A stretch of DNA of 64,000 nt from Allorhodopirellula solitaria (GTDB lineage: Bacteria; Planctomycetota; Planctomycetia; Pirellulales; Pirellulaceae): NCBI RefSeq assembly GCF_007859855.1, contig NZ_SJPK01000013.1:1-64000 (forward strand), given 5' to 3'. Numbering within the stretch: the first letter of the stretch is position 1; each line of letters starts with the position of its first letter. Shown here piece by piece: positions 528-16,876 of the stretch. A program made the position numbers and the translations under genes. The notes below the pieces were generated by a model that had not been told where the DNA came from, ran no database searches, and saw nothing but the letters and a program-made list of their open reading frames with translations.

Positions 528-618
528 GAAAAAACAGGAGCTCCGACTAGTTCAACAGTCTCTCACGCGTCGGGTTACCAAGACCGCTTCGAAAACGAAA
601 GCACGTGCCATTCGCCTA

Positions 619-943
619 AGCAACGCACGATCAATTTCTGTCGTAGTGGACGAGGCGACGAGCTGTTGATTACCCACAAAATCGGATCCCCTGTCGGCTT
701 GTCCGACAGGAATCCATGTTTTGTAGTTAGGAAGGCTCAAGCGTGCACCTCGCTCCCATGGCCGAGCCGACAGGGGAACGACCATCGATGCCACGGTTTT
801 CTAATTCCAAAACGTCGCTTCCCGTGTGGCAAGCACACGGGGGAGCAAACTTGTGGGTAAAGGACAGGAGGCGACGAGTCCAAAGCCGCAGGACTCGTTG
901 CCTCGTCCACTACTAAAACCGACACTTATTCATCGTGTGTTGC
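619..943 (+). repeat. 110-bp hairpin repeat split by an insertion
   Basis: Bases 619-662 and 879-943 together rebuild the uninterrupted hairpin found at 45884-45993 (109 versus 110 bases). The middle is occupied by an inserted segment flanked by an 11-bp direct repeat, GAGGCGACGAG, at 652-662 and 868-878. The intact copy has this 11-mer once at the same place, so the duplication looks like a target-site duplication. Confidence 0.75.
663..867. mobile_element. 205-bp MITE-like insertion with terminal inverted repeats
   Basis: The segment begins CTGTTGATTACCCACAA and ends with the near-complement TTGTGGGTAAAGGACAG (14 of 17 positions pair). It is flanked by the 11-bp duplication GAGGCGACGAG. 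Inside are more palindromes: CCTGTCGGCTTGTCCGACAGG-like around 690-710, its partner near 762-774, and a GTGTGGCAAGCACAC stem near 824-838. No protein-coding frame is credible. The structure fits a non-autonomous transposon moved by a transposase encoded elsewhere. An 11-bp duplication would suit an IS4-like enzyme, but that is only a guess. Confidence 0.65.
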
Positions 944-951
944 TCACGGCC

Positions 952-988
952 CTCGGCTCACCATTGCGGGGCCAACGTCGCTAAAACG
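952..988 (+). repeat. Degenerate copy of the CTCGGCTCA 3'-flank motif
   Basis: CTCGGCTCACCATTGCGG followed by GCCA and an A-rich CG-bounded end resembles the better conserved copies at 32629-32666 (3' of rpoD) and 37418-37455 (3' of proS). Like them it lies just downstream of a minus-strand gene, here the one ending at 1093. A short stem, CGACAA/TTGTCG, follows at about 984-1006. Confidence 0.4.
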
Positions 989-1092
989 ACAAACCGTGAG
1001 GTTGTCGGTGGTGACCGCTACGCTCGAACCACTGGCCAATTCCTCGCGAGGCGGCCCTGGGCCTCTTGGGGTCTGGGGCCTCTTGCGGTCGC

Positions 1093-1647
1093 TCAGGGCA
1101 GTTCGCGCCGGTAGCGGGGCTTGCGAGCGATCGGTAGCTCGATTTGATGCTCCTCTTGAAAACGGCGTCGCTCGACAGCGTCGGCGTAGTAGGTCAACCA
1201 GGTTTCTGTGTCGTCGACACAGCGATACTCCAGTTGGTTTCCCGTCCCATCGATCTTCTTCTCGCAACACGGCAGGATATCGCGGTAGATGAGGCGATAC
1301 AGTTCACGGTCACTCAGGTGATCGGTACAGGTCAGCACGATGGACTGCGAATGCAGACGCTCAATCGTTTCGTGCAGCCTCGCTGTGAGGGAATCGTCGG
1401 CCAAGGACTCGGGGGGAGGAATGTGCAGCGGGGGGTTGAACCAATCCCGAATCGGCAGTGCTGGCGCCCGTTCCCAGGCGAGAATCGAGGACAGGTATTC
1501 GTTCTCCAGCTTCAGGGGCATGCGGGCCATCGCCGGATCGTCGATCGAATCGTCTCGATACGGTTCGAGCTCGTCGCGCAATCGAGCGTTGTCAATCATC
1601 AGATCCACTTCTTCGATCATAGGTCGACTCGCCTTACTCATATCCAT
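1093..1647 (-). CDS. Conserved planctomycete-type hypothetical protein, 184 aa
   Basis: A soluble, acidic protein without signal peptide or membrane segment. The ATG at 1647 is chosen over an upstream GTG because a GGGAAGG ribosome-binding site precedes it. The middle reads NEYLSSILAWERAPALPI and later DHLSDRELYRLIYRDILPCCEKK, followed by a TETWLTYYADA segment and a basic, proline-rich tail. To my recollection this layout recurs in planctomycete genomes as an uncharacterised protein; no function is known to me. It lies about 220 bp downstream of the kinase gene on the same strand and could be cotranscribed with it. Confidence 0.75.
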   Translation of the reverse strand: MDMSKASRPMIEEVDLMIDNARLRDELEPYRDDSIDDPAMARMPLKLENEYLSSILAWERAPALPIRDWFNPPLHIPPPESLADDSLTARLHETIERLHSQSIVLTCTDHLSDRELYRLIYRDILPCCEKKIDGTGNQLEYRCVDDTETWLTYYADAVERRRFQEEHQIELPIARKPRYRRELP

Positions 1648-1868
1648 CGTTTGCGTCACCTTCCCCAGTGGATCGAGCCCACTTGCGAGATGTTTTGCGT
1701 GTTCTCAGGACCAACTCAGGTTGGACGCCTACTAGGCTATCCAGACGCCGGGCATCGTCCATCGAGAATTGAGTCAAAATGGGCCGTTCGTCAAGAAAAC
1801 CAGCACCCGAGCTCGGCCTGATCGTTACGAGCGGCATGCTTTTCCAACCCAGCAGCGACAATCTTTGC

Positions 1869-4862
1869 CTAAAACTGATCTTCGACCCATTCCCGCCAAT
1901 CGTCCCATTCGTCCACGCTCGCCACCAGCTCGGGGAGAGCGGGCAAGCGAACGGTCCGCCCGAGATCAGGGCGTTCCATGTGCACCGAAAGCAGCCCGTT
2001 GATATCGATCTCGAAACCGATCTTGCGGGTAGGCGATTGCTCGCTCGGGTCGACTTCGATTCGATGTCGGCCGAGCGACTGCCATGCTTCGTCCTGGACG
2101 CCGGAGGATTCAACCAGGGCGAGGGTCAGGTGATCGTCCTTGGTCGCGCCACCGAGCTGGCGATTGGTGCGTGCCGGAGTGGGCGTCCCACGGGTGATGA
2201 TGGGCAGGATTTTGCGTTTGCCCCGGGCGTCGGCGACAACAAATCCGACCGAGCGAGCCGCTCGGGACTGGGCCGGCAACACATTCTCACGGTGACCGGG
2301 CAACTCCGCCTGCAGGCACGCCACGGCGCCCTCAGCGGCGTTGGTGGCGTCGAAAAAATCGACCTGCGTCTGGTCCAACGATGAAAAGACGCGTTGCCGG
2401 ATCGCGGGCAGACGCAGCAGTGGACCGTGGGCGAGACAGCGGGAGATCTCCTGGGGCTCGATGCCTGCGCGACTGCAGGCCACCGCGATGGCTTGTTGCA
2501 CGGATTCCATCAGATCGCCACACGCTTCGAGCCACTGGGATCGCGACAGGGTGACCGTCTCGGTCTTGCCCTCATGGCGAATCTCAACCTTGGATTCGGG
2601 CAGCAAAAGTAGCGAGTTCATCGCTCGCTCGCCCGCCATTTGAATTTTGGTGGCATAGATTAACTGGCTGCGATTGACCGACTTGGCGGCCATCACCTGG
2701 GGCGGATTCGATAGTTGCGATTGGATTCGGTCGACCAAACGGCTCGACCAGGCCATCACGCCGCGGTGCCAGTGGCCGGACGATGCGAGTTGCTCAATGC
2801 GATTTCCTCGCCGGCGAATCACGGCAACGTCGAGGGCTTGCCCAGTCAACCCAACGTACAAAACCGTTTCATTGCTATCCTCCTCGAGGCTGTCTTCAAA
2901 GGCATGCCGAGCGATCGCAAGGCCGCGATCAATCAAACGCACCCCCGGCAGTCCCGCGAGCCGCGCAGCGGTATGGATCCCCCGCCGGTGGAGTTGGTCG
3001 TAGCAGCCAGCGACCGTGATCGCGACCGCCTCCGGCCAACTTTCGTGACGCTGCCAATTGTTGCCCAGGACACTGTCGATCGATGCGTTACGCGTCGCAC
3101 CGCTTGCGCTAGAATCCTGCACGTCCGCTGGTGTTCGAACGCCGCGAAAGTTCACCAGGGTCCGGCCGACGAGATGCCGCAAACACAGAGCCGTCGTCAC
3201 GACCGGTGGGCACATCCGGCCCGCGATCGGACGCAGCATGTCCTCACGGCCAAAGTACATCATCTGGCAATGCGAGACGCGATGCGGATATTTGCTTCGT
3301 AGTTCGTAGGCATCCTGCCCGAAACGCAACTCAGCGGTTTCCGAATCGCGGCGAGATTTTTCCGCCACCGCGAGGCGGAACAGGGGCTGAGGTTGATCGG
3401 GTGACCCCGCCGGCCATCCCCCGCGCACGCTCCCGCCGGGACGCCCGACCGCCGTAGCCGCATGGGTGGCACTCAAATCGATGCCGAGCACACTCAGAGC
3501 ACGGGGACGGATCGGTCCGGTCGATGCGCTGAGCGCGTTGGACGTCGAACCCTCTTCGTCGATCTTTCGATGTGAGAAGTCCAGTACCCAAGCCGGTGTC
3601 GAGCGATCGTTGTCGTAGGGCGCCATGGCGCGGGCGACCTCGTCCATGGAGGCGTACCGCTCCGCAGGAGACTTGGCCAACATGCGGGCGACAATGTTCG
3701 CGAGCGTGACGTCCACATCGCGGCGATACGACATCAAGTCAGGGATCTCGCCGTGCCGATGACCATAGATCTGATCGATCATCTCGCCCGGGAAAGGCGG
3801 ATGACCTACCAACAAATAAAACAGCGTCGCGCCGAGTGAATACTGGTCGCTGCGGGCATCGGCGGAGTTAGGGTCCTCCAACTGCTCGGGCGAGATGAAT
3901 GCGAGGGTTCCCATCAAGGAGCGTTTCGGTGAACTCAGCAGACGCAGCGAATCGTAGGGCTCGGCGACCTCCATCGCTGCCGACGGAGCATGTGCTGAGT
4001 CACGGGACGATCCCGCCACCGGATCGTTAGGTTTCGCCTTGAGAGGCTCCGCTCCTTTTCCCTTAACAGGATCCGCCCCTTTGCGTGACTTGCTGTCCTT
4101 GGCGGGGTGCCATTGGCGGGAAAACCGAGCCAAGCCGAGGTCGAGCAGCTTGATCGTGCCCTCCCGCGAACGCATTAAATTGCTCGGTTTGACATCCCGG
4201 TGAATGATCCCGGCGGCGTGAGCATGGTGCAGGGCAAAGGCGGCTTGCCGAATGGCCGACGTCGCGTCACCGACCGACATCGGCCCCTCTTCGGCAACGA
4301 TCTGCGACAGCGTTTTGCCATCGACGTATTCCATCGCGAGAAAATGAATCCCCTCGGCTTGTCCGGCATCAAACGCCGTCACGATATTCGGATGCATCAA
4401 CCGCGAGGCGGCCCGGATCTCGTCATGGAAACGCTCGATCGAGCCGGTATGGTTGAGCCAACGCGAGGGCAAGACCTTTAGCGCGACGGTCCGCCCCATC
4501 GATCGATGCTCGGCGAGAAAGACTTCCCCCATCCCCCCGCGACCGAGACGCTTGCCGACCCGATAGCCGCCGACGGTTTCCGGCAAAGGAACCGAGTCGG
4601 TATCGAAAAAATCGTCCATCTCAATCGCGACCGATCCCTCACTGGACAGCAACGTGCGGGTGAACTCCTGCCGGTTCTCAGCAACCGCGAGCGGCTCGGG
4701 CTCTCTCGCAATCGTCACGTCGCTCGACGATCCGGCAGCAATCGGGGCTGCCCAATGACTGCCCCGCGAATCATCGCTGGCTCTCGAATCATCGCTGGCT
4801 CTCGAATCACCCGAATCATGTTCGCGAGGCGGCAGATCGGGATCGCGGGGGGGAACTGGCAC
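1869..4862 (-). CDS. Serine/threonine protein kinase fused to a degenerate Hsp70-like domain, 997 aa
   Basis: Domains in order: a polar N-terminus with an imperfect RASDDS repeat (about residues 21-35); a PknB-type kinase (about 99-415) with glycine loop GRGGMGEV, ATP-binding Lys in VALKVL (129), catalytic HRDVKPSN (221-228), DLG in place of DFG (241-243) and the SPE-type motif (about 324-326); then an Hsp70/actin-fold region (about 457-990). The latter starts LGIDLSATHAATAVG, matching the first phosphate loop of Hsp70, but the second phosphate motif (normally DxGGGT) reads VGLTGQALDVAV, so nucleotide hydrolysis is doubtful. The activation segment carries an unusual insert of about 60 Lys/Pro-rich residues. 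No membrane segment is seen, so the protein should be cytoplasmic. The start is a GTG and uncertain. Divergent from hemC. Confidence 0.88.
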   Translation of the reverse strand: MPVPPRDPDLPPREHDSGDSRASDDSRASDDSRGSHWAAPIAAGSSSDVTIAREPEPLAVAENRQEFTRTLLSSEGSVAIEMDDFFDTDSVPLPETVGGYRVGKRLGRGGMGEVFLAEHRSMGRTVALKVLPSRWLNHTGSIERFHDEIRAASRLMHPNIVTAFDAGQAEGIHFLAMEYVDGKTLSQIVAEEGPMSVGDATSAIRQAAFALHHAHAAGIIHRDVKPSNLMRSREGTIKLLDLGLARFSRQWHPAKDSKSRKGADPVKGKGAEPLKAKPNDPVAGSSRDSAHAPSAAMEVAEPYDSLRLLSSPKRSLMGTLAFISPEQLEDPNSADARSDQYSLGATLFYLLVGHPPFPGEMIDQIYGHRHGEIPDLMSYRRDVDVTLANIVARMLAKSPAERYASMDEVARAMAPYDNDRSTPAWVLDFSHRKIDEEGSTSNALSASTGPIRPRALSVLGIDLSATHAATAVGRPGGSVRGGWPAGSPDQPQPLFRLAVAEKSRRDSETAELRFGQDAYELRSKYPHRVSHCQMMYFGREDMLRPIAGRMCPPVVTTALCLRHLVGRTLVNFRGVRTPADVQDSSASGATRNASIDSVLGNNWQRHESWPEAVAITVAGCYDQLHRRGIHTAARLAGLPGVRLIDRGLAIARHAFEDSLEEDSNETVLYVGLTGQALDVAVIRRRGNRIEQLASSGHWHRGVMAWSSRLVDRIQSQLSNPPQVMAAKSVNRSQLIYATKIQMAGERAMNSLLLLPESKVEIRHEGKTETVTLSRSQWLEACGDLMESVQQAIAVACSRAGIEPQEISRCLAHGPLLRLPAIRQRVFSSLDQTQVDFFDATNAAEGAVACLQAELPGHRENVLPAQSRAARSVGFVVADARGKRKILPIITRGTPTPARTNRQLGGATKDDHLTLALVESSGVQDEAWQSLGRHRIEVDPSEQSPTRKIGFEIDINGLLSVHMERPDLGRTVRLPALPELVASVDEWDDWREWVEDQF

Positions 4863-4897
4863 GGTGTTTCAATCGACCCCGAATGAAGAGAAAAAAA

Positions 4898-4935
4898 GGA
4901 TGGCATTGCATAGGATAGACTATCTCGCCATCCTT
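4898..4935. promoter_or_regulatory. Perfect 9-bp inverted repeat between kinase gene and hemC
   Basis: AAGGATGGC (4898-4906) pairs exactly with GCCATCCTT (4927-4935), with a 20-bp centre that contains a second small palindrome (GATAGACTATC). It lies in the divergent intergenic region, 35 bp upstream of the kinase start. It could be an operator for either gene or a leader hairpin of the kinase transcript. Position and symmetry are the only evidence. Confidence 0.4.
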
Positions 4936-5084
4936 GGAACGCATCCATGGCGTCATCGTTCCCACTGTTTCGTGTGAAATCACAGGATTTCCGGGCTCCT
5001 TTCGCCGGCTGCGAGTTTCTTGGCGCCCCGCTCCTGTGACTTGGACAGGTCGTTTTCCTTCCCTGCTATATAGGTTTCTTTGCT

Positions 5085-6083
5085 GTGCCCAGGTCCGTTC
5101 CCCCTTCCTCCACCTCCCCCTCTGGCACTGCGGTACGGACACTGCGGATCGCGACCCGAGAGAGTCCGCTGGCGATGTGGCAGGCACGACACGTGGCGGC
5201 GGGATTGACCGCCCATGGCGTGGCCACGGAACTTGTCCCCCTCGTCAGCGGTGGCGATACGGACATGCGGCCGATCGATGGCAGTCGTCAAGTCGGTTTG
5301 TTCACCAAGCGGATCCAGCAAGCATTGGTCGACAATGAAGCCGATATCGCTGTGCACTCGCTCAAGGATCTACCCACCCAAATTGACGAGCGGTTTTCGC
5401 TCGCGGCCGTCCCGCCGCGAGAGGTCGTCACGGACTGCTTGGTTTCACCCACCGGGATCGCCCTCGCCGACCTGAGCGTCGGCGCTCGCGTCGGTACCGG
5501 CAGCACGCGGCGGATGGCGCAGCTGAAGTCGCTGCGCGATGACCTCCGCGTCGAACCGATCCGAGGAAACGTGCAAACGCGATTGTCCAAACTGGAATCC
5601 GGCGAGTTCGATGCGATCGTGCTGGCCGAAGCCGGTCTGCTGCGATTGGAAATGCACGACCTGCCTCGAACGCGTTTTTCACTCGAAGAGATGCTGCCGG
5701 CCCCCGGACAAGGGGCCCTGGGTATCGAAGTCCGTAGCGACGATGCCGAGGCCTACGCGGCCGTGAACCATCTCGACGATCAACCAACCCGATGGGCCGT
5801 CGTCGCCGAGCGAACCGTCCTGGCGGCTCTGCATGGCGGATGCTTGGCGCCAATCGCCGCGTACAGTGTCGCCCTGCCAACAGCCGATTCGCAAACGGCC
5901 CAACTCAACCTGACCGCGGTGGTGATGTCGACCGATGGGACGCAGCGTCTGGAGGAATCAGCGGTCAGCAGTTTCGAGATCGCCTCCCCACCGAGCGACG
6001 CCGCGGCCATCGAATTGGGCAGCGCTGTCGCTGAGAAACTCCGCGCCGCCGGTGCCGAAAGACTCATCCAAGCCGCCCGTTAG
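5085..6083 (+). CDS. hemC: Porphobilinogen deaminase (hydroxymethylbilane synthase)
   Basis: Polymerises four porphobilinogen molecules into hydroxymethylbilane in tetrapyrrole synthesis (cytoplasm). Recognisable segments are [16 protein letters not shown] near the start, [27 protein letters not shown] (substrate-binding Lys/Asp region), [36 protein letters not shown] and [12 protein letters not shown], where the Cys is the site that carries the dipyrromethane cofactor. The 332-aa length is normal. The start is a GTG about ten residues before the conserved core; other starts nearby are possible. Monocistronic in appearance, divergent from the kinase gene. Confidence 0.95.
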
Positions 6084-6121
6084 CATTGAAAATGCAGCCG
6101 AGTGAGGCAACGAACGATCGC

Positions 6122-6491
6122 AGTAGCCCGGGCGAAGCCTCGCACCTAAGAAACGAAGAAACTGGCTCACCGACTCAGCAAGAAGCTTAAAGACGCTGCG
6201 ATCATGCTGCTCGCAGGTGACCGCCACGGTGCAAATTCGTTCAAACCAAGCTTGGCCATTCTCACCACAGAGCGTTTGCGTCATCCGGCGATGAATCGCA
6301 ACAAACCGAATCGGTATCCGTTCACGGCCTACGGCCCTGAACGAGTGATGCCTAACGCTCTGACGCGATGTATTGTGCGCAGTCAATGGGCTGTCTTGGC
6401 AAGCTCACTGGCATCTCTAATGTGCTGGGTCTTCCCGCAGCCCTAGCAGATAGTCGAACGCATTCCTGGCACTGGTTGCTTGCCCTTCCAT
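6122..6491 (-). pseudogene. Decayed IS66-type transposase remnant
   Basis: Two fragments survive. At 6122-6305 the minus strand reads FVAIHRRMTQ then GQAWFERICTVAVTCEQHDR and SVFKLLAESV, which resembles the C-terminal region of IS66-family transposases (a pattern of the type VIDR-ITQGTRS...ERI-TV-ATC-QQGRSVF). At about 6420-6491, in another frame, ARNAFDYLLGLREDP resembles the NPFDYL segment of the same family. Stops and frame changes separate them, and no intact gene exists. The 460-bp gap between hemC and the glycosyltransferase otherwise shows nothing else I recognise. Confidence 0.45.
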
Positions 6492-6542
6492 CCATTACCT
6501 CGGCATTTGCCCTACATGATTGGCAGTGCTCAATTCCCCGAT

Positions 6543-8258
6543 TCAATTTTTCACCTGCCCGTCGACCACGTGGTAAATCGTCGTTGATTCCGACAGACGC
6601 ATTGTTGGAGATCGGCTGAGGAACCAAGAGTTCGGTTCCGTCAGAAGTTGATCGATCGATACCACCCACCATCCGTCCTTGCCGGGGCCCTCACGTGACA
6701 TGGCCCCCGTGCCGACAGTAACGTCGATCCCCAGCCGGTGGAAATCCACTTCCGAGGGAGAGTAAAGGAGGTACACGGGACGACGCTTCGGATGTTCGCG
6801 GACCCAGTGGCGAATCGCGAGCAAATCCTGGCCCCAATGAAGATTGCTATGGCTCAGATAGCGATGCCCGTTCCGCCAACCGCCAACAATCTCGCCAAAA
6901 TATGCATAGCTGCGTGGGACAATCGAAACGCTACTCAGAGCGAACCAGATCAACAGTGCGACCAGCAGCTTGCGAACTTGGCTACCTGCAAACCTTATCG
7001 GATAAGCCGCCAATAGAAATACTGCCGGAAATGCGGGAAGAACATATCGTAGGTGATGGTTGAATCCAGTTTGAGAACTGACTAGTACAAAGACCGCCAG
7101 TCCCGGTAGGATCATGACAAAAATCCCGATCATTCTCCGGCGCCCCAGTCGCCTGTGCCCACAACAATTACGAATCATCAGACCGCTACCAACCGCGACG
7201 ATCAACCAGAACGCAAGCGGAACTTTGACCAACCAAGCCACGGTGTAGTAGTACCACCAACCACCCTCTTTCCACTCGCCCATCAAGTAGGAACGCATTT
7301 TGCCCTCGAAGTCACGTTTTTGAACATCGATCCCGTGAGTGTATTCCGCAGGCAGCGGGACCGGAATCCAGCCTAGTAGAGTCCCGGAAAAACGATTGCC
7401 GACACGCGGATTCATTGTCGGACTTCCGTTGTCGATGCCGCTAAGTGTTTGGCTGATAAAGTCAAGGGCCCCGATCGGACGAAGCATTCCCCGGAAGTCA
7501 TATACCGCGTGGACCAACAGCCAAGCAAGCAAGGCCGCTACACCAATCTGTTTCCATCGCTTCGACCAGGCGTGCCTCTTTGGAGAAACGTGGCACAATA
7601 TCAAGTACATCAACAACAGTAGGGGCGGCAGCACGATCCACGTTGACTTACTTAACAACGCTGCTGCGACGCTGATCCCGAGCCACACCGCATCCCGCCC
7701 GCGACCGATCTGATACCAGCAATAGAAACTCCACGTTGCCCAAAAACCGAATACCGTCGCGCCGACGTCCGGCGTGATCGTCGCTGCGTACGCGATCACC
7801 ATAGGCGAAAAGACCCACAACGTTGCGGCAAATAGACCGACGGATGGACCACCCAGTCGGCGACCGACCTTTTCAATCAGGAATGTCCCGAAAATCGCAA
7901 TTGGGATCGCGCCCGTCCGCGCGATCGACATCCAATAGAAAATATCCGGTCCCTGTTGGCGAATATAAGCCAAGCCTAAAAATACCTCCGACCGAACGCC
8001 GGGCCCCTTTGGGAAAATTTCGTAATTCATACCGCCGCCGAGCAAAGCCACAGGAATGGCTGATAATAATCGAATCAGAGGTGGATTGACACGATAAGGG
8101 TGAAAGTCGCCGTACTGCAAACTAAACAACCCACTGGGTAGGTGCCCCCACTCGTCCCACCCTGGCCCCGTCCACCACGCCGTCACAAGCAGCATCGTGA
8201 GTTGAATCAACGACAAGGCGAAGAGAAAAATTCGATTCAAACGCCTACTGGGGAGCAT
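6543..8258 (-). CDS. GT39/ArnT-like integral membrane glycosyltransferase, 571 aa
   Basis: A polytopic membrane protein (about ten hydrophobic segments) of the PMT_2 type. These enzymes transfer a sugar from a polyprenyl-phosphate donor to a lipid or protein outside the cytoplasmic membrane. The first external loop holds WDEWGHLPSGLFSLQYGDF and PPLIRLLSAIP, the usual acidic and PPL motifs. Near the C-terminus, HWGQDLLAIRHWVREHP matches the WGQDL segment common in these proteins. Its ATG lies inside the end of the preceding Lnt-like gene (14-bp overlap), which suggests translational coupling. With the upstream DPM1-like glycosyltransferase it could form a donor synthase/transferase pair. The acceptor is unknown. 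Confidence 0.8.
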   Translation of the reverse strand: MLPSRRLNRIFLFALSLIQLTMLLVTAWWTGPGWDEWGHLPSGLFSLQYGDFHPYRVNPPLIRLLSAIPVALLGGGMNYEIFPKGPGVRSEVFLGLAYIRQQGPDIFYWMSIARTGAIPIAIFGTFLIEKVGRRLGGPSVGLFAATLWVFSPMVIAYAATITPDVGATVFGFWATWSFYCWYQIGRGRDAVWLGISVAAALLSKSTWIVLPPLLLLMYLILCHVSPKRHAWSKRWKQIGVAALLAWLLVHAVYDFRGMLRPIGALDFISQTLSGIDNGSPTMNPRVGNRFSGTLLGWIPVPLPAEYTHGIDVQKRDFEGKMRSYLMGEWKEGGWWYYYTVAWLVKVPLAFWLIVAVGSGLMIRNCCGHRRLGRRRMIGIFVMILPGLAVFVLVSSQTGFNHHLRYVLPAFPAVFLLAAYPIRFAGSQVRKLLVALLIWFALSSVSIVPRSYAYFGEIVGGWRNGHRYLSHSNLHWGQDLLAIRHWVREHPKRRPVYLLYSPSEVDFHRLGIDVTVGTGAMSREGPGKDGWWVVSIDQLLTEPNSWFLSRSPTMRLSESTTIYHVVDGQVKN

Positions 8259-9804
8259 GACATCCCTTTTGAAATGACCGATCGCAACAACATCTGAACA
8301 CCGCCAATCCTAAAACCGCGAACATGGAAAGCCACACAATCCAATCACCTGCCCATGCATAAACGCTGGTCGTTCTGCAAACCGGCACCTGATAGAGCTG
8401 CATTCCACCATGACACGCTGTTGGCTCGATCCTGCACCCTCGCGGACCAAAGGCGGCCGTCAATCCGCCGAGCGAGGACCGCACGATCGACCGCCTTGCC
8501 TCGACAGCGCGTATCCGGCAGTGTGTCATTGACAAATTTTGGAAAATACCCGATTGATCGAAAGTTTCATCAAGCGAACACGTCAGGAACAGGTCGCCTT
8601 CATCGATATCGTGCAAATACGACCACGCAAAAAAAGCATCGTAGCAAACGCCGACCTTCACTCGCTGTGGTTGATGAAACCAACGCAGCAGTTCTTCTGC
8701 GAGCGCCGGTGGCGTAGCATCACGCACGGCACCTTCGGGCAGCGCGCCCAGCTGAATCAGCGACTCCGTTCCCAGCGGCTGCGACTCGACAAATGGCGCA
8801 AGACGATGCTTCGCCTCAATACCAACTATCTTGCGATCTCGTATCTCAACGACCGCATTGATCCGATCGGATCGCCTTCCCACGCTTACCCAAGCTCCCA
8901 CGATGACGGCGCAGTCCTCCAGCGAGGAGGCATCCAACCAAAGTCGGTCGTTCGTTCTTGTCAAATGTAAATCCCCGTCCGCAAGCGTCAAGTGGATCAT
9001 TGTCTCGGCGCCCAAAATGGTAACTTCCTCGCAATCGCCATCCTTCCGTGCCTGCACTATCAGCGACTTCAGCTCCGATTCGCTGGAACTCGACAATGGG
9101 AGCGGAACCGCTACTACGGCGGCCTGGTCTGTGACGGCATTCCGAAACGACAGCGAGTTTGACGTGACAATGGCGGTCACCACGAAGCCAATGATGCCCA
9201 CGCCGATGAGCCGATCTCCTCGAGATCGCTGGCCATCTGATGCGATCACCACTCCCGTCAACAGGGAAACGCAAGCAAAGGAGAGCAACGATACTCCGCC
9301 GATGGCGGCAAGCTGAAGTCCGAATCCATCCGGCACGGTCTGGCCCAACGAACCAAACGTCAATCCACTACCGTCATAGCAGTATGCGATGGCATGTCGA
9401 AAAGTCTCGTAAAATACTATAAAGAACGGCAGAACAGTTATTACAGAACAGGATCGACCGAGCATGTGGGACATCGCGCCCATGACCCCAGCATGAAACG
9501 CGGCAAAGGCCAGTGTCAAAAGCAGCCAGATCACCCAGAGATCACCACCTTTCGATAACAGAATTCCAGCGAACAAGATGCCGTATAGAAACAGGCCTCC
9601 GAGGAATCGGCTGAGATTCGTTCCGACATGACTCCCGATAACGAAAGTGAAGTACACACCCAGTAGCGCGCCCGCAAAAAACAAAATGTCGCTACGTGAC
9701 GCAATCAAACTCCAGCCCAGAAAGCCAGAACCAGCGATCACGCACAGGGCATCGAGAAAACGTCCGCCTCCACCGCGCCGCCGCGCGCTATAGATTCGAT
9801 TCAC
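8245..9804 (-). CDS. Apolipoprotein N-acyltransferase-like (Lnt-like) membrane protein, 519 aa
   Basis: About six membrane segments fill residues 15-220, followed by an extracytoplasmic nitrilase-like region and a C-terminal membrane segment, the layout of Lnt. The nitrilase triad appears to be kept: Glu in VTILGAETM, Lys in IVGIEAKHRLAPF and Cys in VGVCYDAFF; RSSLGGLTAAFGPRG matches the segment after the nucleophile. Lnt adds the third acyl chain to lipoproteins. Overall similarity seems low, and the neighbours are not those of a housekeeping Lnt, so a dedicated paralogue acting on a local product is plausible. Start is a GTG at 9804. It lies 22 bp after the exported protein gene and overlaps the GT39-like gene. 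Confidence 0.7.
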   Translation of the reverse strand: MNRIYSARRRGGGGRFLDALCVIAGSGFLGWSLIASRSDILFFAGALLGVYFTFVIGSHVGTNLSRFLGGLFLYGILFAGILLSKGGDLWVIWLLLTLAFAAFHAGVMGAMSHMLGRSCSVITVLPFFIVFYETFRHAIAYCYDGSGLTFGSLGQTVPDGFGLQLAAIGGVSLLSFACVSLLTGVVIASDGQRSRGDRLIGVGIIGFVVTAIVTSNSLSFRNAVTDQAAVVAVPLPLSSSSESELKSLIVQARKDGDCEEVTILGAETMIHLTLADGDLHLTRTNDRLWLDASSLEDCAVIVGAWVSVGRRSDRINAVVEIRDRKIVGIEAKHRLAPFVESQPLGTESLIQLGALPEGAVRDATPPALAEELLRWFHQPQRVKVGVCYDAFFAWSYLHDIDEGDLFLTCSLDETFDQSGIFQNLSMTHCRIRAVEARRSIVRSSLGGLTAAFGPRGCRIEPTACHGGMQLYQVPVCRTTSVYAWAGDWIVWLSMFAVLGLAVFRCCCDRSFQKGCHAPQ

Positions 9805-9826
9805 CTTGATTCGTCCAAAACTGTAC

Positions 9827-10768
9827 TTACTTTTCGGCGCGTCGGCGTTTTAGCCACTTGGACCCAAAATAGAGAAATAGCAGAAAAATGCCGCTACCGA
9901 GTAGCACCAGTCGGCGGAACCAAGGATTGCTTCTCGGCATTCCGAGTTCCCCCATCGAAAATACCTCCAACGGGGCGGGCTCGAGTTGATGCTCAAGTAA
10001 GCGACACTCAAACTCGCTTGAGTAGTCCGTATTGGATACAACCGTGTCAACCGTCTTAGTTGGAAATTCATCCTGGTTCTCGCCATAGGTTATCGACGCC
10101 TGGTTTGTTCCAGTCGTCTGACCATCTTCTGCTTGGAACTGCATTTCCCATGATTGCACCCTGTAGTCCTCCGCCGTCATAACTACATTGTATTGCTTGG
10201 TTCCATCGTCGATTCGCCGTGAGAACGAACCGATGACATGGCCAGCGTCGTCACGGTTAAACTTCAAATTACGCAATCCGGGTTGCTTATTGATCCATTG
10301 GCGAATGTATGTCTGAACTTGAACCGTGCCAATTCGATTTGCCATTGACACGAAGTATTGTCCTTTTACTTTGGCGACACCTTCATCCGGATGTCCGATG
10401 TCATAAATTGCCCCTGGATCATCGACTTTTCTCGCATTGATTTTCACAAATCCTTCCGGTCGCACAATAATACGCCTAATTTCTCCACTTGCCTCTCCAT
10501 TGCTGAGGGATTGCGTATCGATACGGAAATAGCGATTGTCTCTCGCCCAGTACTCAATGAGTTTTTCCTGCGCCTCGCCGTCTATTACTTCGCGCTGACG
10601 CCAAATGAAATGGCCATTGCCGTACACTTCCTCTCGAGCGGATTGAACTTCGATAATATCGGAGTATAGACTGCGTCCGTCGGCCAGCGTGGATTGGTTC
10701 ATCAGTAGCCACGAAGCTAATAGCAATGAACGAACAAGGACGCGAAGATAAGTCTCAGTATGCATCAT
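9827..10768 (-). CDS. Exported protein with C-terminal membrane anchor, 313 aa, function unknown
   Basis: An N-terminal signal peptide (LVRSLLLASWLLMNQSTLA) is followed by about 240 soluble residues rich in beta-type sequence and ending in FRRLVLLGSGIFLLFLYFGSKWLKRRRAEK, a membrane segment with a basic cytoplasmic tail. The soluble part, with repeated YFRIDTQ/VKINAR-type strands, loosely recalls outer-surface or LolA-like folds, but I do not recognise a family. Its place between the cysteine-rich peptide and the Lnt-like enzyme suggests it may hold or guide the cluster's product at the outer face of the membrane. Confidence 0.75.
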   Translation of the reverse strand: MMHTETYLRVLVRSLLLASWLLMNQSTLADGRSLYSDIIEVQSAREEVYGNGHFIWRQREVIDGEAQEKLIEYWARDNRYFRIDTQSLSNGEASGEIRRIIVRPEGFVKINARKVDDPGAIYDIGHPDEGVAKVKGQYFVSMANRIGTVQVQTYIRQWINKQPGLRNLKFNRDDAGHVIGSFSRRIDDGTKQYNVVMTAEDYRVQSWEMQFQAEDGQTTGTNQASITYGENQDEFPTKTVDTVVSNTDYSSEFECRLLEHQLEPAPLEVFSMGELGMPRSNPWFRRLVLLGSGIFLLFLYFGSKWLKRRRAEK

Positions 10769-10851
10769 AATAAATTAGAAAAGCGGTGCGGTGTGGCGAA
10801 TCAAGGTTCCACTCCGCACCTATTGTTAAAGGCATCTATTTCCAGGGCGGA

Positions 10852-11109
10852 TTAGGCTAACCCGCCGCCGGGCGTTGTCGCGTCACAAGGACATGCGTTC
10901 TCCTCTTTCTGAGGCGGGCAACCACATGTGTTGCCGTTGACCGTTCCAGAACAGTTCCCTGTGCATTTCCTTTCATTCAGCGTCGCTTCACGGCAACTGC
11001 CGTCGCAGCCACTGCTTCCCCACGCCCATGCGTTCGTCGTCGGCAGCAATGCCGACACTAACAACGCTAATCCCAACGTGCCTATCATTCCGGACACACG
11101 ATCATTCAT
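10852..11109 (-). CDS. Small cysteine-rich exported peptide, 85 aa
   Basis: A signal peptide (about 1-29, ending in NAWA) precedes a 55-residue mature part with eight cysteines in four close pairs: CDGSC, CTGNC, CGC and CPC (CX3C, CX3C, CXC, CXC). The rest is rich in Gly, Asn, Thr and Pro. GGAGAG lies upstream of the ATG as ribosome-binding site. There is no canonical lipobox at the first Cys (SSGC). The pairing suggests disulfides, metal binding or covalent modification. It sits 39 bp after the MauE/DUF1573 fusion; MauE-type proteins are tied to redox maturation of cysteine-rich periplasmic proteins. I do not recognise the family. It is the likely substrate of the cluster, by inference only. 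Confidence 0.72.
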   Translation of the reverse strand: MNDRVSGMIGTLGLALLVSALLPTTNAWAWGSSGCDGSCREATLNERKCTGNCSGTVNGNTCGCPPQKEENACPCDATTPGGGLA

Positions 11110-11148
11110 CTCAATCTCTCCGTCAACTTGAAAATTGCATCCACGGCG

Positions 11149-12738
11149 TCATGGATTCGGATGCACCAAAGCCGTCACGCCCAGCATGAGGGTGGACGTG
11201 GAATCATCAAACAGCAATTCAGCCGATTCATGCTGAATGCCCGCAGTTGGTCCAGCGACCAAATGAATTCGGATTGATTCGGTCTCTTTTGGCGCCAAGG
11301 TGAGCGGCAGATCGTCGATCGCAATGCAGCGACAAGAACCTTTTGCTCCCAACACACGAACCGATTTGTTCGATGCGTTGCGCAGTTCAAAGGCGGTCGT
11401 CGCGGTATCGCCAGGCTCGACTCGACCGGCAAACTGCTCTTGTGATTTGACCAATACAGAGCTACCGGCAAGGTAGCCGATTGCCGATCGCGGCGAGCCA
11501 AAGCCCAATACGGCCGCTGCGAGTAGAACGGGCAAGATAAACCGAGCGTAATTCGCCACCTCTCCCAACAATCCAGGCGGCATCGACGACGTTCGACTCC
11601 ACCACCCACGCTGCAGAATGAGACAGACGCAAACAACGAAATCCAGCCCGATCATCGCCTGGATCGGTAGCCCAACACTCCCCAGACACTGGCATTGCGT
11701 CGCACCATGAGCCCACTGGAGCAACAGTAGCGAAGCGAATACACTGATCATGACAAGCAGCAATCGGTGAAGCGGGCCATGAGCAACGAAAGTCAGTGTT
11801 ACCCACCCTAGCAAACACTCAAACACACCCCAAGCGATGACAATGCTACTCGGAGCCACCCACTGCGTTGCCAATAACATCGGTTGGCCCGCTGTCGCTT
11901 TCGCCAGTCCAGCGACCATCAGGAGGCAACCAACCGCGAGTCGTGTGATGACGTAGAACCTGCTCGCAACGGGAACGCAGTACGTCTCAGAGTGGGGCGA
12001 TACAGGAGCGAACCGCCATTTTAGCAGCACGAATACGAGCCGAAAGAAGTCGGCTGACCGAATTTTCTTGCCTTCCTCAAACGAGCGAGGACGATATGAA
12101 ATTTGCGACTCGACGATTGAGATTCCACGCCGAAACAACTTCGCATTCATCTCAGTGCACAGTTCGAATCCAGTGCTCGATAGATTCAGTTGCCTTAGTA
12201 GCCGTGTGGGCAACAGTTTGTAGCAGGTTAACGGATCGGAGAGCCAATACCCGTACAGTACCCACTGAACGATTGCGACCATCCGCACTGCCCAGTAGGC
12301 AACAAAGTGCCCCCCCGGCGATTTTCCCGAACTGAGGTAACGAGAACCATAGAAAACAGCATCAGGCTTTTGCCTATTATTTGATCCTAACGCGTCCGCA
12401 TGAAGGGCCGCGAGATCGACCGGATCGTACTCAAGATCTGCGTCCTGGATCGCTATGAATTGCCCTGTCGCGACAGCGGTTCCATCTCGAACCGCGGTCC
12501 CTTTACCACCATTTGTGTCTCGGATAATGACACGCAAATCCAGTTCCTGGGCCAGAGATAGAACTATCGAACTTGATAGATCCGTCGAACCATCGTCGAC
12601 GACGATGATTTCCGCGCCAGGCAATGATTGGCGGACCGAGACTAAAGTAGCCTTGACCGTTCCTGCTTCATTGAAGCAAGGTACGACAACTGAAAGTCCC
12701 GTTCCTGTGCGACCCCGTTCTTCATCATCTTCTGCCAT
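11149..12738 (-). CDS. Fusion of DPM1-like glycosyltransferase 2, MauE/DoxX-like membrane domain and DUF1573 domain, 529 aa
   Basis: Start at ATG 12738, preceded by GGAGGT ten bases upstream; the frame stays open further but that part looks non-coding. Residues about 15-240 form a GT-A domain: SVVVPCFNEAGTV, IIVVDDGSTD, NGGKGTAVRDG and IAIQDADLEYDP (metal-binding Asp), as in polyprenyl-phosphate hexose synthases. Next come about four membrane segments with VAGLAKATAGQP and CQCLGSVGLP, the signature of MauE-like redox membrane proteins. The last ~100 residues (GRVEPGDTATTAFELRNAS, GSCRCIAI) are a DUF1573 domain, expected outside the membrane. I know of no protein described with these three parts together. 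First gene of the cluster. Confidence 0.82.
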   Translation of the reverse strand: MAEDDEERGRTGTGLSVVVPCFNEAGTVKATLVSVRQSLPGAEIIVVDDGSTDLSSSIVLSLAQELDLRVIIRDTNGGKGTAVRDGTAVATGQFIAIQDADLEYDPVDLAALHADALGSNNRQKPDAVFYGSRYLSSGKSPGGHFVAYWAVRMVAIVQWVLYGYWLSDPLTCYKLLPTRLLRQLNLSSTGFELCTEMNAKLFRRGISIVESQISYRPRSFEEGKKIRSADFFRLVFVLLKWRFAPVSPHSETYCVPVASRFYVITRLAVGCLLMVAGLAKATAGQPMLLATQWVAPSSIVIAWGVFECLLGWVTLTFVAHGPLHRLLLVMISVFASLLLLQWAHGATQCQCLGSVGLPIQAMIGLDFVVCVCLILQRGWWSRTSSMPPGLLGEVANYARFILPVLLAAAVLGFGSPRSAIGYLAGSSVLVKSQEQFAGRVEPGDTATTAFELRNASNKSVRVLGAKGSCRCIAIDDLPLTLAPKETESIRIHLVAGPTAGIQHESAELLFDDSTSTLMLGVTALVHPNP

Positions 12739-12806
12739 GGAAACTGCGACCTCCGGCTGAGGAAAAAGCGCTAGCACCGAATAACGAAGAAGTGTAACGA
12801 CAGCTA

Positions 12807-12818
12807 GGGGGGGGGGGG
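12807..12818. repeat. Homopolymeric tract of twelve G
   Basis: Twelve consecutive G on the plus strand (C on the coding strand) lie about 70 bp upstream of the chosen start of the glycosyltransferase fusion, in the presumed promoter or leader. Tracts of this length can slip and change expression or, if an upstream start is used, the reading frame. Confidence 0.8.
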
Positions 12819-13021
12819 CAAGCATCAAATGGCTGTTTCGTTGTTTTTTTCTCCGCAAGGAATCGCGGGGAAACGAATCCGAGAAGAAAACGATAAAGGG
12901 TAGAGGGGCACGATGAAGTCCAAGATGCTAACGCCAAGAAGAATCCGATTGCATCACGCCCGACCAACCAACGAGCCGACCATCACACTGGCGACAGCGA
13001 GAGTGTTCTGCCAACGAGACT

Positions 13022-13486
13022 CTAGCCCCCGAGCAGCCTCGCGTGCAGCCGCCAATGACGCGGACCCTGCAGATGCGCCCTGACCCCCACTTCGAAAAGA
13101 ACCGTCCGCTCGACCGGTGAAACCAATCCTGCGGTGAGGTGCTCGTACCCGGGGCGGCAGCGACGGGCTTCGCCAATGCGGTCGACGAGCTCGGCAATTC
13201 CCTCGCTCGGCACCGCCCAGATCACAAGGGCAGGTGAGCGACCTCCATTCTCCCGTCCATGAATTGGTTGACGAGGCAGAGAAAGGGTGTCGCGCCGGTG
13301 CAAGTGGATGCGCCAGCTTTGTGGACAATCCTCTGGCGTCGAAGCGTGAGCCTTTGGCGATCGAGCACTACGGAGCAACTCGATGAAGGACTCACGCCAC
13401 GCCATCGCCTCCTCGCCGACCCACCATACTTCTCTCTCCGGGGCAGCCGCTGCGAGCGCAGGGGCAAGGGAATCGAACCGGCTCAT
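13022..13486 (-). CDS. Hypothetical protein paired with the sigma-54-type regulator, 154 aa
   Basis: Its ATG overlaps the stop of the upstream regulator (ATGA at 13483-13486), so the two are translated together. The protein has no signal peptide. It contains EVWWVGEEAMAWRESFIELLRSA near the start and a central SPALVIWAVPSEGIAELVDRIGEA segment that could be a small alpha/beta fold. I recognise no family. The coupling suggests that it acts with the regulator, for example as a partner or sensor domain. Confidence 0.65.
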   Translation of the reverse strand: MSRFDSLAPALAAAAPEREVWWVGEEAMAWRESFIELLRSARSPKAHASTPEDCPQSWRIHLHRRDTLSLPRQPIHGRENGGRSPALVIWAVPSEGIAELVDRIGEARRCRPGYEHLTAGLVSPVERTVLFEVGVRAHLQGPRHWRLHARLLGG

Positions 13487-14889
13487 CCGACGCCACCATC
13501 GCTGAGCTTGCGGAGCAGCCGCGAGCGACTGATCCCGAGCCGCCGCGCCGCTTCGGCCTTGTTTCCGTCGGCCGCAATCATGGCACGCTCGATCAACTTC
13601 GATTCGTACTGGCTGAGCACGTCGTCGAGTGAATCGATCTGGAAATCATGCGGCGAGACGGGCCGAGGGCCGACCGTGATTACGCCATCGCTGCTGCTGA
13701 CGTGGCTGCCGGAGGATTGCGGTCGCCGGTACGAGCGAATGGCCAGAGGCAGGTGCTCGCGACCAATCCGGTCTCCCGCGACGATCTCCACAGCAAACTG
13801 GATCGCGCCCGTCAGCTCGTCCCATTCGCCGGGCCAGGGATACGACCGGAGCCAATCAATCGCCTCTCGCGATATCCGCGTCGAGCGAGCCAGCCCCGAC
13901 GCGATCAGCTCGAGGTCGTCCTGACGCGCCGCCAGCGGCGGAAACTCGATCGGAAAAACCTCCATCGCGTCGGCTAGCGATTCCTCGAGCGGCACGCTCG
14001 TGTCGCCGCGGTGAGCGGTATCGCGGCGGATCCCGATCAAGCGGAGACGCTGTGGCCACGCCGCCAACCATTCGGATAATCGCGTCTGAGCGTCGACAGG
14101 CATCTCATCGAGGTGATCCAGGCACAGCGTGCCTGTCGTTTCTGCCTGTTCTCTTAGTTCCGCGATGACTGGCGCGGCGTAGACCTCGAGCAATTCCGCG
14201 TCCATCAACGACGCGTCCAGAATGACCAACGGCTCCCCCGGGGCAGAATCATGGTGGATCATCGCGGCGATCTCGGCGGCGCCGCAGCCCGGGGGCCCGA
14301 TCAAACCGATGTGGCTGCGTATATTGCAGGCGAGTTCGACGCGGCCGCGGAGCCGCCGGGACGGTCGGCTCGTGCCCGCCAATAACAGATTGGCGTGCCG
14401 CTTCTGTCGCCCGCGAAACCGAGCGAGTTCCTCATCGAGCTTCGCCGACTGACGCACTCCCTGGACACCAAACCAATCCTGCCACGGGATTTCGGTATCG
14501 GCGAGGTAGTTGCCCAAGCACCCCAGGATCATGCCGGGTGGTCCGGCGGGTGGAGAATCTCCTGTCCCTTGGGCCGCCGACAGATTTTCCAACACGACGA
14601 AGTGGGCGACAGCAGTGCGAGGTTCGGCGGCTGAATTCCGGTCACCGTCGCCCGCAATTTCTAGGGGCACATGCAATCGCTGTGTCACATGACCGCGAAA
14701 AGCGTCACCCGTGCGTAGGGCTGCTCGATCGAGTATCAAGGAATCGGCGACCCTCGCTGGCAGGTCAGTCTCAATGCCCAGCCATAATCTCATGGCGGGG
14801 GAGAGATACACGATCTCTCCGGCTGAGTCGATCAACCACAGGCAAGCGGCGGTGGACTCCAATAGACGCGGCAATGTCCCCGAACGCAT
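13483..14889 (-). CDS. Degenerate sigma-54-activator-like regulator with Fis-type DNA-binding domain, 468 aa
   Basis: An N-terminal PAS-like segment (LLESTAACLWLIDSAGEIVYLSPAMRLWLG) is followed by an AAA+ region and a C-terminal Fis-type helix-turn-helix (GNKAEAARRLGISRSRLLRKL). The Walker A motif reads GPPGCGAAE, so the Lys and Ser/Thr that bind ATP are missing; Walker B (GTLCLDHLDEMP) has His where the catalytic acidic residue is expected; no GAFTGA loop is visible. It therefore probably cannot remodel sigma-54 RNA polymerase and may act as a plain DNA-binding regulator. Followed by a coupled hypothetical gene. Confidence 0.8.
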   Translation of the reverse strand: MRSGTLPRLLESTAACLWLIDSAGEIVYLSPAMRLWLGIETDLPARVADSLILDRAALRTGDAFRGHVTQRLHVPLEIAGDGDRNSAAEPRTAVAHFVVLENLSAAQGTGDSPPAGPPGMILGCLGNYLADTEIPWQDWFGVQGVRQSAKLDEELARFRGRQKRHANLLLAGTSRPSRRLRGRVELACNIRSHIGLIGPPGCGAAEIAAMIHHDSAPGEPLVILDASLMDAELLEVYAAPVIAELREQAETTGTLCLDHLDEMPVDAQTRLSEWLAAWPQRLRLIGIRRDTAHRGDTSVPLEESLADAMEVFPIEFPPLAARQDDLELIASGLARSTRISREAIDWLRSYPWPGEWDELTGAIQFAVEIVAGDRIGREHLPLAIRSYRRPQSSGSHVSSSDGVITVGPRPVSPHDFQIDSLDDVLSQYESKLIERAMIAADGNKAEAARRLGISRSRLLRKLSDGGVG

Positions 14890-14961: not shown

Positions 14962-15360
14962 CTAGAATGTGTCGAGGATGAAGTGGTGGCCTCGATGGAA
15001 GCGGCGGTTACTGGGATAATAGTTGTGCCACTTCTTATTGTAGACCGGGATTCGCATCTCGGTGGGGTAACGGTGATACAGGCTATCACTACTCTTGAAA
15101 TACTCTTGTCCCCAAAAGTTCTGGGGGTAGTACACGTAGGGGTAGTGGTAGAACCGGTTCCAGTCGACGTTGGCCGCCGAACCGCCCCACGCTCGCCCGA
15201 AGGCTTGCTGGTTGCCGTATCCGGCACCTGGACCTCCCATCGCCCCAGCTCCGCCAGCCATTCCAGGTACAGGCATCTGGGCCGACACGTTACTAGCCGT
15301 AGCAGCAGAAAAAGCGATCACGCCGCAGGCGACGGATAGTAGGATGAATCGACGAATCAC
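14962..15360 (-). CDS. Small exported Gly/Tyr-rich protein of planctomycete type, about 132 aa
   Basis: With GTG at 15360 the product begins VIRRFILLSVACGVIAFSAATASNVSAQ, a clear signal peptide; an ATG at 15492 would add 44 residues before it, which fits an exported protein less well. The mature part has a glycine/methionine-rich stretch (GMAGGAGAMGGPGAGYG) and an aromatic C-terminus with YHRYPTEMRIPVYNKKWHNYYPSNRRFH and FILDTF at the end. I recall similar C-termini in other planctomycete exported proteins of unknown function. No catalytic motif is seen. Confidence 0.65.
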   Translation of the reverse strand: MIRRFILLSVACGVIAFSAATASNVSAQMPVPGMAGGAGAMGGPGAGYGNQQAFGRAWGGSAANVDWNRFYHYPYVYYPQNFWGQEYFKSSDSLYHRYPTEMRIPVYNKKWHNYYPSNRRFHRGHHFILDTF

Positions 15361-15523
15361 GTGAAGTTTCCCGTTGAACGTTTGGAAAGTGCTCAGAAAG
15401 GAGCGACACTCCGTTTCATCGGCACATCCCCGTCGAACGGTTGAGCCCTTTCCACATGAATATCCGGCAAGACCGGATTTCCATGTGGCCATCGATCGGT
15501 CAATGGCAGAGCGAACCGGTCGC

Positions 15524-16876
15524 TCAACGTGATTGCGAGCGTCCTTTCTGCTTGGCTTCCTCAGCCCGCGTGCGTTTCTGAAAATACAGCTTGATCGGCA
15601 CCTCGCCGAAGGGCAGGTGGTCGCGGAACCAACCCAGCAGATAGCGTTGGTAATCGTGGGTGAAGGCGTTGGGGTCGGTGCACATCAAGACGATCGTGGG
15701 CGGTTCAGTCGACACCTGCGTCGCGTAGAAGATTTTCGGTCGGCGGTTCTGATAGAGTGCCGGTGGATGCACGTCCATGGCCGCCCGCACGACCCGGTTG
15801 AGCTCGCCCGTCGATACTCGCGACTGGGCTTGCTTGTGCAACATCGCGGCATGGTTGAGCAGCGTCTTGACGTTCTTTCCCGATTGTCCGGTGATGAACG
15901 CGATCGGTGCGTACGACAACGTCGTGAACTGGTGTCGCAGGTATCGCACCCATTTTTCGGTCGGCACCTGGCCCGCATAGAGATCCCATTTGTTGACGAC
16001 GAAGATGACGGGCTTGTGGTGTTCGATCACGTACCCGACGAGTTGCTTGTCGACCTTGCTCGTTTTTTCACTGGCATCAAAGAACATCAGCACCACGTCG
16101 GCGCGGCGAACGCTGCGGGCCGCCCGGTGCGAGGAGTACCACTCCAAGTCCGTGCGCACGCTCTTGCGTTTTCGCAGCCCCGGGGTATCGATGGCCGTGA
16201 AAGTTTGCCCGTCGATCTCGAAATTGACGTCGACGCTGTCGCGGGTCGTCCCGGCAACCTCGCTGACGATCATCCGGTCGGATTCCGCGAGCGTGTTGAC
16301 AAACGTGCTCTTGCCCACGTTGCGGCGACCGACGATCGTCAACTTCATCGCTGATTCCGGGCGGATCGTTTCATCCTCGGGCGGTAACCGATCGACAATC
16401 ACTTCCATCAAATCGTCACGACCGCGGTTCTGCAGCGTGCTGACGGGAATCAACATGCCGCGTCCGAGCGTTCGGAACTCTTCCGCATGAATCTCTTGAT
16501 GGTCTTGGTCGGTCTTGTTGGCGACCAAGATCACGGGCCGCTCAACGCCCCGGAGTCGCTCGACAACCTCCGTGTCGAGCGGCATCACACCGGTCTGGAC
16601 ATCGACAACGAGCACGATCACGTCCGCCGACGCGATCGCCAGCTCGATCTGGCGTTTGACATCCGCCGTCAGGTCGTCGGCATCCTCCACGCCCATCCCG
16701 CCGGTGTCGACGAGTTCAAAATATCGGTCATCGGTCTCGATGAGCGTGGTCATGCGGTCGCGGGTGACGCCTTCGTAATCGTCAACAATCGCCAGGCGGC
16801 GGCGGGCCAGCCAATTGAAAAGACTGCTTTTGCCGACATTGGGTCGGCCGACGATGGCAACTTGAGGAACAGGCAT
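15524..16876 (-). CDS. der: Ribosome biogenesis GTPase Der (EngA)
   Basis: Two tandem GTPase domains and a C-terminal KH-like domain, 450 aa. Domain 1 has GRPNVGKSSLFN (G1), DTGG (G3) and NKTD (G4); domain 2 has GRRNVGKSTFVN, DTPG and NKWD. Der acts in maturation of the 50S ribosomal subunit. The ATG at 16876 gives the usual start MPVPQVAIVGRPNVGKS; the frame is open upstream but that part has no family features. The divergent uracil-DNA glycosylase begins 126 bp away. A weak stem (ATCCGG/CCGGAT) at about 15459-15477 follows the gene. Confidence 0.96.
   Translation of the reverse strand: MPVPQVAIVGRPNVGKSSLFNWLARRRLAIVDDYEGVTRDRMTTLIETDDRYFELVDTGGMGVEDADDLTADVKRQIELAIASADVIVLVVDVQTGVMPLDTEVVERLRGVERPVILVANKTDQDHQEIHAEEFRTLGRGMLIPVSTLQNRGRDDLMEVIVDRLPPEDETIRPESAMKLTIVGRRNVGKSTFVNTLAESDRMIVSEVAGTTRDSVDVNFEIDGQTFTAIDTPGLRKRKSVRTDLEWYSSHRAARSVRRADVVLMFFDASEKTSKVDKQLVGYVIEHHKPVIFVVNKWDLYAGQVPTEKWVRYLRHQFTTLSYAPIAFITGQSGKNVKTLLNHAAMLHKQAQSRVSTGELNRVVRAAMDVHPPALYQNRRPKIFYATQVSTEPPTIVLMCTDPNAFTHDYQRYLLGWFRDHLPFGEVPIKLYFQKRTRAEEAKQKGRSQSR

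Follow-up and report, generated by a model that had tools for sequence, protein, structure and literature searches.

A recurrent planctomycete gene cassette that may export a small cysteine-rich peptide and mature it outside the inner membrane

What do five adjacent genes of the planctomycete Allorhodopirellula solitaria make together, when they combine enzymes of protein glycosylation and lipoprotein acylation with an exported peptide of only 85 amino acids? The genes are minus-strand open reading frames (ORFs) at 6543-12738 of a 64-kb stretch of contig NZ_SJPK01000013.1, which was analyzed as a whole and is referred to here as the window. The answer to which the evidence leans, by a modest margin of confidence, is that the product of the cassette is a small Cys-rich peptide, which is exported and then matured at the outer face of the inner membrane. 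The core of the cassette would be the peptide, a DUF1573 protein (often with a MauE part), and an anchored protein, while the sugar and acyl steps would be optional modules. The features are as follows.

6543..8258, minus strand: PMT_2/GT39-like polytopic glycosyltransferase (P0001), from a Pfam PF13231 match and a family alignment
8245..9804, minus strand: divergent apolipoprotein N-acyltransferase (Lnt)-like membrane protein (P0002), from a TIGR00546 match below the cut-off and residues E267/K332/C387
9827..10768, minus strand: exported protein whose predicted LolA/LolB-like domain is accompanied by a single membrane helix and basic tail at the C-terminus (P0003), from fold comparison of a model
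10785..10820, minus strand: stem-loop of -18.0 kcal/mol with a T-rich stretch 3' of it, in the gap that separates the peptide gene from that of the anchored protein
10852..11109, minus strand: exported 85-amino-acid peptide with 8 Cys and a C-terminal CxC (P0004), from six relatives with a like leader
11149..12738, minus strand: fusion of GT2, a MauE-like membrane part, and DUF1573 (P0005), from domain matches and the MauE matches of relatives

The five genes, their strand and order, the short gaps, the 14-bp overlap (between the genes for P0001 and P0002), and the kept Lnt triad were all found as the initial annotation had described them, and at the same positions. The other gaps measure 22, 83, and 39 bp, and a longer start of P0005 is possible at a TTG codon at 12858.

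The reading is carried mainly by the position of peptide genes across Planctomycetota. Small exported Cys-rich ORFs starting from -60 to +250 bases from the stop of a gene were counted in the fetched stretches (numbered with L below, and their genomes with G). Such an ORF followed 25 of 47 MauE/DUF1573 ORFs versus six of 460 other genes. Because the 47 ORFs include near-copies (L055/L057 and L092/L093) and count one gene twice (L055/L101), the associated p-value of 5.6e-24 is too small; the effect is still large. Split by domain, a peptide followed 24 of the 34 DUF1573-containing ORFs and one of the 13 lacking DUF1573. Of the six control finds, four look like further members.

A seven-row family profile of the MauE-DUF1573 part matched 139 of 392 phylum genomes, mostly partially, and the same part used as a query identified more distant homologues in nine of 149 genomes of the family. 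The surroundings of many of these homologues repeat the cassette pattern. Among the relatives placed in the same family are Pirellulaceae bacterium KatS3mg111 (G154) and also Planctomycetes bacterium CA13 (G098). The order GT2-MauE-DUF1573, eight-Cys peptide, P0003-like protein, and PMT recurs in both (L055 and L057 in the former, L059 and L060 in the latter), where L059 carries two cassettes in tandem and some copies are shortened or frame-broken. The peptide and anchored-protein genes occur as pairs, three of which are in L055.

The window peptide ORF looks coding, because six relatives in two other genomes have the same type of leader and 8 Cys each; an alignment of all seven contains a common leader and six invariant Cys columns. 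More broadly, the part beyond residue 32 contains between 7 and 14 Cys in 24 different peptides, and a CxC motif, which played no part in their selection, was located within the last 14 residues in 20 of them versus 5.4 (standard deviation 2.0) expected from shuffled cores. The arrangement resembles that of ribosomally synthesized and post-translationally modified peptides (RiPPs), as a precursor with a common leader and a variable Cys-rich core adjoins a candidate modifying enzyme, here the MauE-DUF1573 neighbor. Neither the window peptide nor the anchored protein had a curated family match at useful scores in Pfam or NCBIfam, and no credible match was found for the other peptides searched (ten in NCBIfam and seven more in Pfam). 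When the window peptide was searched by sequence in 13 genomes of the genus, 11 gave matches at E <= 1, among which the window copy alone was convincing. NVEALA-type Bacteroidales peptides were also considered, and the literature searched contained no mention of them. Additionally, the Cys-rich peptides encoded close to DUF1573 or MauE matches at L145:4053-4493 and L151:5205-5666 are longer and have leaders of another kind; they are perhaps a different precursor type.

In P0005, the GT2 domain scored 84.7 bits against a Pfam cut-off of 23.3, and the closest solved structure to this part was a dolichol-phosphate mannose synthase (E 1.1e-11), which bears out its earlier description as DPM1-like. 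The proposed fusion was confirmed for GT2 and for DUF1573 (PF07610, 31.7 bits versus a cut-off of 26.1). Its MauE part is assigned through relatives: Pfam MauE (PF07291) had no match to the window protein at E <= 1, and the assignment is made because the six other members of the seven aligned do match, with a best E of 1.9e-10. Two CxC motifs, one in the MauE part and one in the DUF1573 part, are invariant in the seven-row alignment. A GT2 model built from the window, L057, L059, and L096 gave matches below 1e-60 in those four and in L055 and L098. A profile of the entire fusion identified four loci in the contig collection, all in CA13 and KatS3mg111, and a plasmid search at E 1e-20 returned three records that each matched the GT2 part alone.

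A half-barrel LolA/LolB-like fold was predicted for the P0003 domain by comparison of its model with known structures, which changes the mechanism relative to that of the initial annotation. Homologues of P0003 were found in six of the 149 family genomes, its own included. Its profile matched at least two of the 392 phylum genomes, again with its own among them, a count that is an underestimate because just five candidates per genome were scored; a single-sequence search of the contig collection gave no match.

P0001 passes the Pfam cut-off for PMT_2 (PF13231, 46.2 bits versus 26.1), and its residues D35 and E36 are invariant in a six-row family alignment; it is predicted to move a sugar from polyprenyl phosphate onto Ser/Thr residues. 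PMT-like genes were found in nine of the 21 peptide-bearing stretches as well as in L054, which has no peptide. As the PMT model was built from the window, L054, L055, L059 (two), and L060, the independent finds are L094, L095, L096, and L132, and L057 is a near-copy.

P0002 matched TIGR00546 with 83.6 bits, or 84.7 when the genome was scanned, and so fell short of the 132.9-bit cut-off; its Glu-Lys-Cys triad (E267, K332, and C387) aligns with that of housekeeping Lnt copies. Related genes occur at three peptide cassettes (the window, L099 in G443, and L136 in G493) and in the remnant L054 of KatS3mg111. The scan covered seven hand-picked genomes, among them all four with a known cassette Lnt. 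Each genome encodes exactly one gene above the cut-off, a separate housekeeping Lnt; the next-best scores (99.2, 94.1, 84.7, and 66.7 bits) belong to exactly the four cassette or remnant genes, and all others reached at most 46.5 bits. A tree of 14 Lnt-like proteins places the seven housekeeping copies in a cluster apart (support 86/88), while, given long branches, the cassette copies may or may not have one origin. The concern that P0002 is simply the general Lnt is therefore not borne out, as a divergent second gene recurs beside the housekeeping one. Homologues of P0002 were identified in five of the 149 family genomes, its own included, with strong matches confined to the window genome and KatS3mg111. 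Three other Lnt homologues (L063-L065) have no further cassette part nearby by these models. In L054:4291-8124, the Lnt-like gene, which is shortened, and the PMT-like gene stand directly after IS66 transposase genes, and no peptide was seen.

PMT, Lnt, and MauE proteins work at the outer surface of the inner membrane. Since this would place all enzymes but the GT2 there, the economical reading has the peptide exported through Sec and then given disulfides and, optionally, sugar and acyl groups, with the LolA-fold protein as its holder. The leader would direct the peptide through Sec, and the MauE-DUF1573 protein would insert or sort its disulfides, perhaps beginning at the terminal CxC. The LolA-fold protein could then hold or carry the peptide at the membrane, as LolA and LolB do with acylated proteins. 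Where the modules are present, the GT2 would load a hexose onto polyprenyl phosphate, from which the PMT would pass it on to Ser/Thr residues in either the peptide or the anchored protein. In a subset including the window, the Lnt-like enzyme would add an acyl group, the would-be ligand of the LolA-type pocket. Either the peptide or the anchored protein may be the substrate of the PMT and Lnt-like enzymes, as may some other molecule. A wider proposal, which is advanced more tentatively, is that these ribosomal peptides form one class across the phylum, whose maturation takes place entirely outside the inner membrane. In such a class, a MauE-DUF1573 relay with paired CxC motifs would form the disulfides, polyprenyl-dependent glycosylation would be optional, a dedicated second Lnt would acylate in some members, and a membrane-anchored LolA-fold receptor would be the peptide's own partner, with the core diversifying behind a constant leader.

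Stem-loops of -20 kcal/mol or lower were found after 12 of 24 peptide genes versus 13 of 85 control gaps (p 0.0008), an excess that is exploratory because the T rule was dropped after an earlier strict T-run terminator test gave no excess (2/24 peptides versus 14/110 controls, at -8 kcal/mol). Six other peptides of the window subfamily are followed by stem-loops of -21 to -31 kcal/mol. On this exploratory basis, the stem-loop would fit a surplus of peptide over the downstream gene products.

Several observations weigh against the proposed maturation. No peptide follows 22 of the 47 MauE/DUF1573 ORFs (12 without DUF1573 and 10 with it), and no MauE match lies beside the peptide in eight of 21 stretches (L095, L098, L099, L132, L134, L135, L136, and L147), five of which are at the edge of a contig or fetched stretch, whereas L099, L132, and L147 have sequence in view. 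PMT is missing from 12 and Lnt from 18 of the 21 peptide-bearing stretches, some of them on short contigs. P0003-like genes also occur without a peptide in L056, L058 (at a contig edge), L062, and L059:8166-9257. In the window's genus, one such gene (L061:8850-9400, minus strand) is preceded by a C-terminal peptide fragment alone, which looks like a decayed cassette. Structural matches to P0003 include DUF1329, ependymin-related proteins, porins, and ApoB chains, and the predicted fold by itself would say nothing of a ligand. The window peptide contains no lipobox-like site by pattern search, which speaks against ordinary lipoprotein acylation of that peptide and leaves another substrate possible; among four peptides from Lnt-bearing stretches, one has such a site. 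Ser/Thr content, judged by eye, fails to set apart the peptides near a PMT gene from the others. The parts list, gene order, and motifs are observed and the fold is predicted from a model, and it is from these that the bonds, sugar, and acyl group are inferred.

The suggestion that the peptide is the substrate of the system thus gained from the company that peptides keep with MauE/DUF1573 genes phylum-wide, often with PMT or GT2, and lost from the scarcity of Lnt and PMT and the stretches without MauE. The addition of sugar or acyl groups to the window peptide itself was not supported.

Among the alternatives, the one that survives best, although still unlikely, is that the peptide is a secreted bacteriocin-like antagonist, hardened by the enzymes, with the LolA-fold protein as its private immunity partner or export chaperone. 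The paired peptide and anchored-protein genes would suit this explanation, as would the constancy of the leader while cores diverge. For example, two paralogous peptide genes of KatS3mg111 (L055:14860-15120 and 16579-16860, minus strand) are identical at 88 of 90 nucleotides over the first 30 codons, while their cores match in 91 of 194 alignment columns, and similarity ends on both sides of a block made up of the ribosome site and some 36 leader codons. That genome holds four leader copies. The leader module appears to have been swapped or converted as a unit, and recombination alone could yield the pattern. The low GC (guanine plus cytosine) content of the cassette also fits, at 0.49-0.56 per kb over 6001-13000 versus 0.58-0.65 in 14 of 17 other kb up to 24000, as do the IS66 genes beside the remnant L054. 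Against it, the tested peptides lack family matches. A clean empty site was not obtained: five genus relatives keep the genes at 13483-14889 and 14962-15492 and have no hemC or cassette matches within about 12 kb on the other side of them, and the stretch from a sixth was too short for comparison.

Less probable again is a structural or adhesive role of the peptide in a surface appendage or matrix, assembled with nearby DUF1559 pilin-like proteins. DUF1559 genes were found in 11 of 19 cassette stretches (L055, L057, L059, L060, L090, L094, L096, L098, L136, L143, and L144) versus four of 25 control stretches (p 0.009). However, L055 and L057 are near-copies, and the window, which lies outside the 19, has no DUF1559 gene (11 of 20 once included). 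DUF1559 is a large family in planctomycetes, so some of these contacts would arise by chance. The window genome (6.8 Mb in 62 contigs) holds a second stretch of the kind (L094, C1:714000-732000). Within it, 530-10338 carries two peptide sets and two DUF1573 together with MauE, a PMT-like gene, and a DUF1559 gene.

That the peptide is a bystander of enzymes serving general envelope glycosylation and lipoprotein acylation is the least probable alternative: GT2, PMT, and Lnt families do have general roles, and L054 keeps its Lnt-PMT pair without a peptide (a case of enzymes persisting alone, although IS66-adjacent and with Lnt shortened), but a separate housekeeping Lnt is present in all seven genomes checked and the peptide's place right after DUF1573 far exceeds the control rate.

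Maturation of an exported peptide outside the inner membrane, the preferred reading, would assign DUF1573 a role that experiments can probe, and one small peptide may be served by Lnt, PMT, and Lol-type folds together. The rule of gene order (DUF1573 with or without MauE, a CxC-ending peptide, and a LolA-fold anchor) finds peptides missed by sequence search. Because four planctomycete genomes carry a divergent second Lnt in addition to the housekeeping one, the question of unusual Lnt substrates can be put to direct experiment.

No publication on the planctomycete system was found among the matches listed, most subscription papers lying outside the search. In mycobacterial Ppm1, enzymes like dolichol-phosphate mannose synthase and Lnt are found together, whereas the planctomycete GT2 and Lnt-like proteins are encoded by separate genes and the GT2 is fused to MauE-DUF1573 instead. 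The anchored protein shares its predicted fold with the LolA/LolB carriers, while it differs in its C-terminal membrane helix and in having no Lol match in Pfam or NCBIfam at E <= 1. A presumed disulfide role links the cassette to methylamine dehydrogenase maturation (MauE/MauD), where a MauE-type protein has been speculated to aid disulfide formation in a subunit of the enzyme (cited in PMC7794033); the MauE part of the present system is fused to DUF1573, with GT2 added in the window protein, and the substrate would be a free peptide. The closest published parallel found is decRiPPter, which described three Streptomyces candidate RiPP families with MauE, for which its authors proposed a modification role (PMC7794033). 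The portions of that description considered here concern another phylum and do not mention DUF1573, a LolA-fold partner, PMT, GT2, or Lnt. The likeness, drawn by description only, is a MauE homologue adjoining a precursor gene with at least eight Cys in each cluster (PMC7794033).
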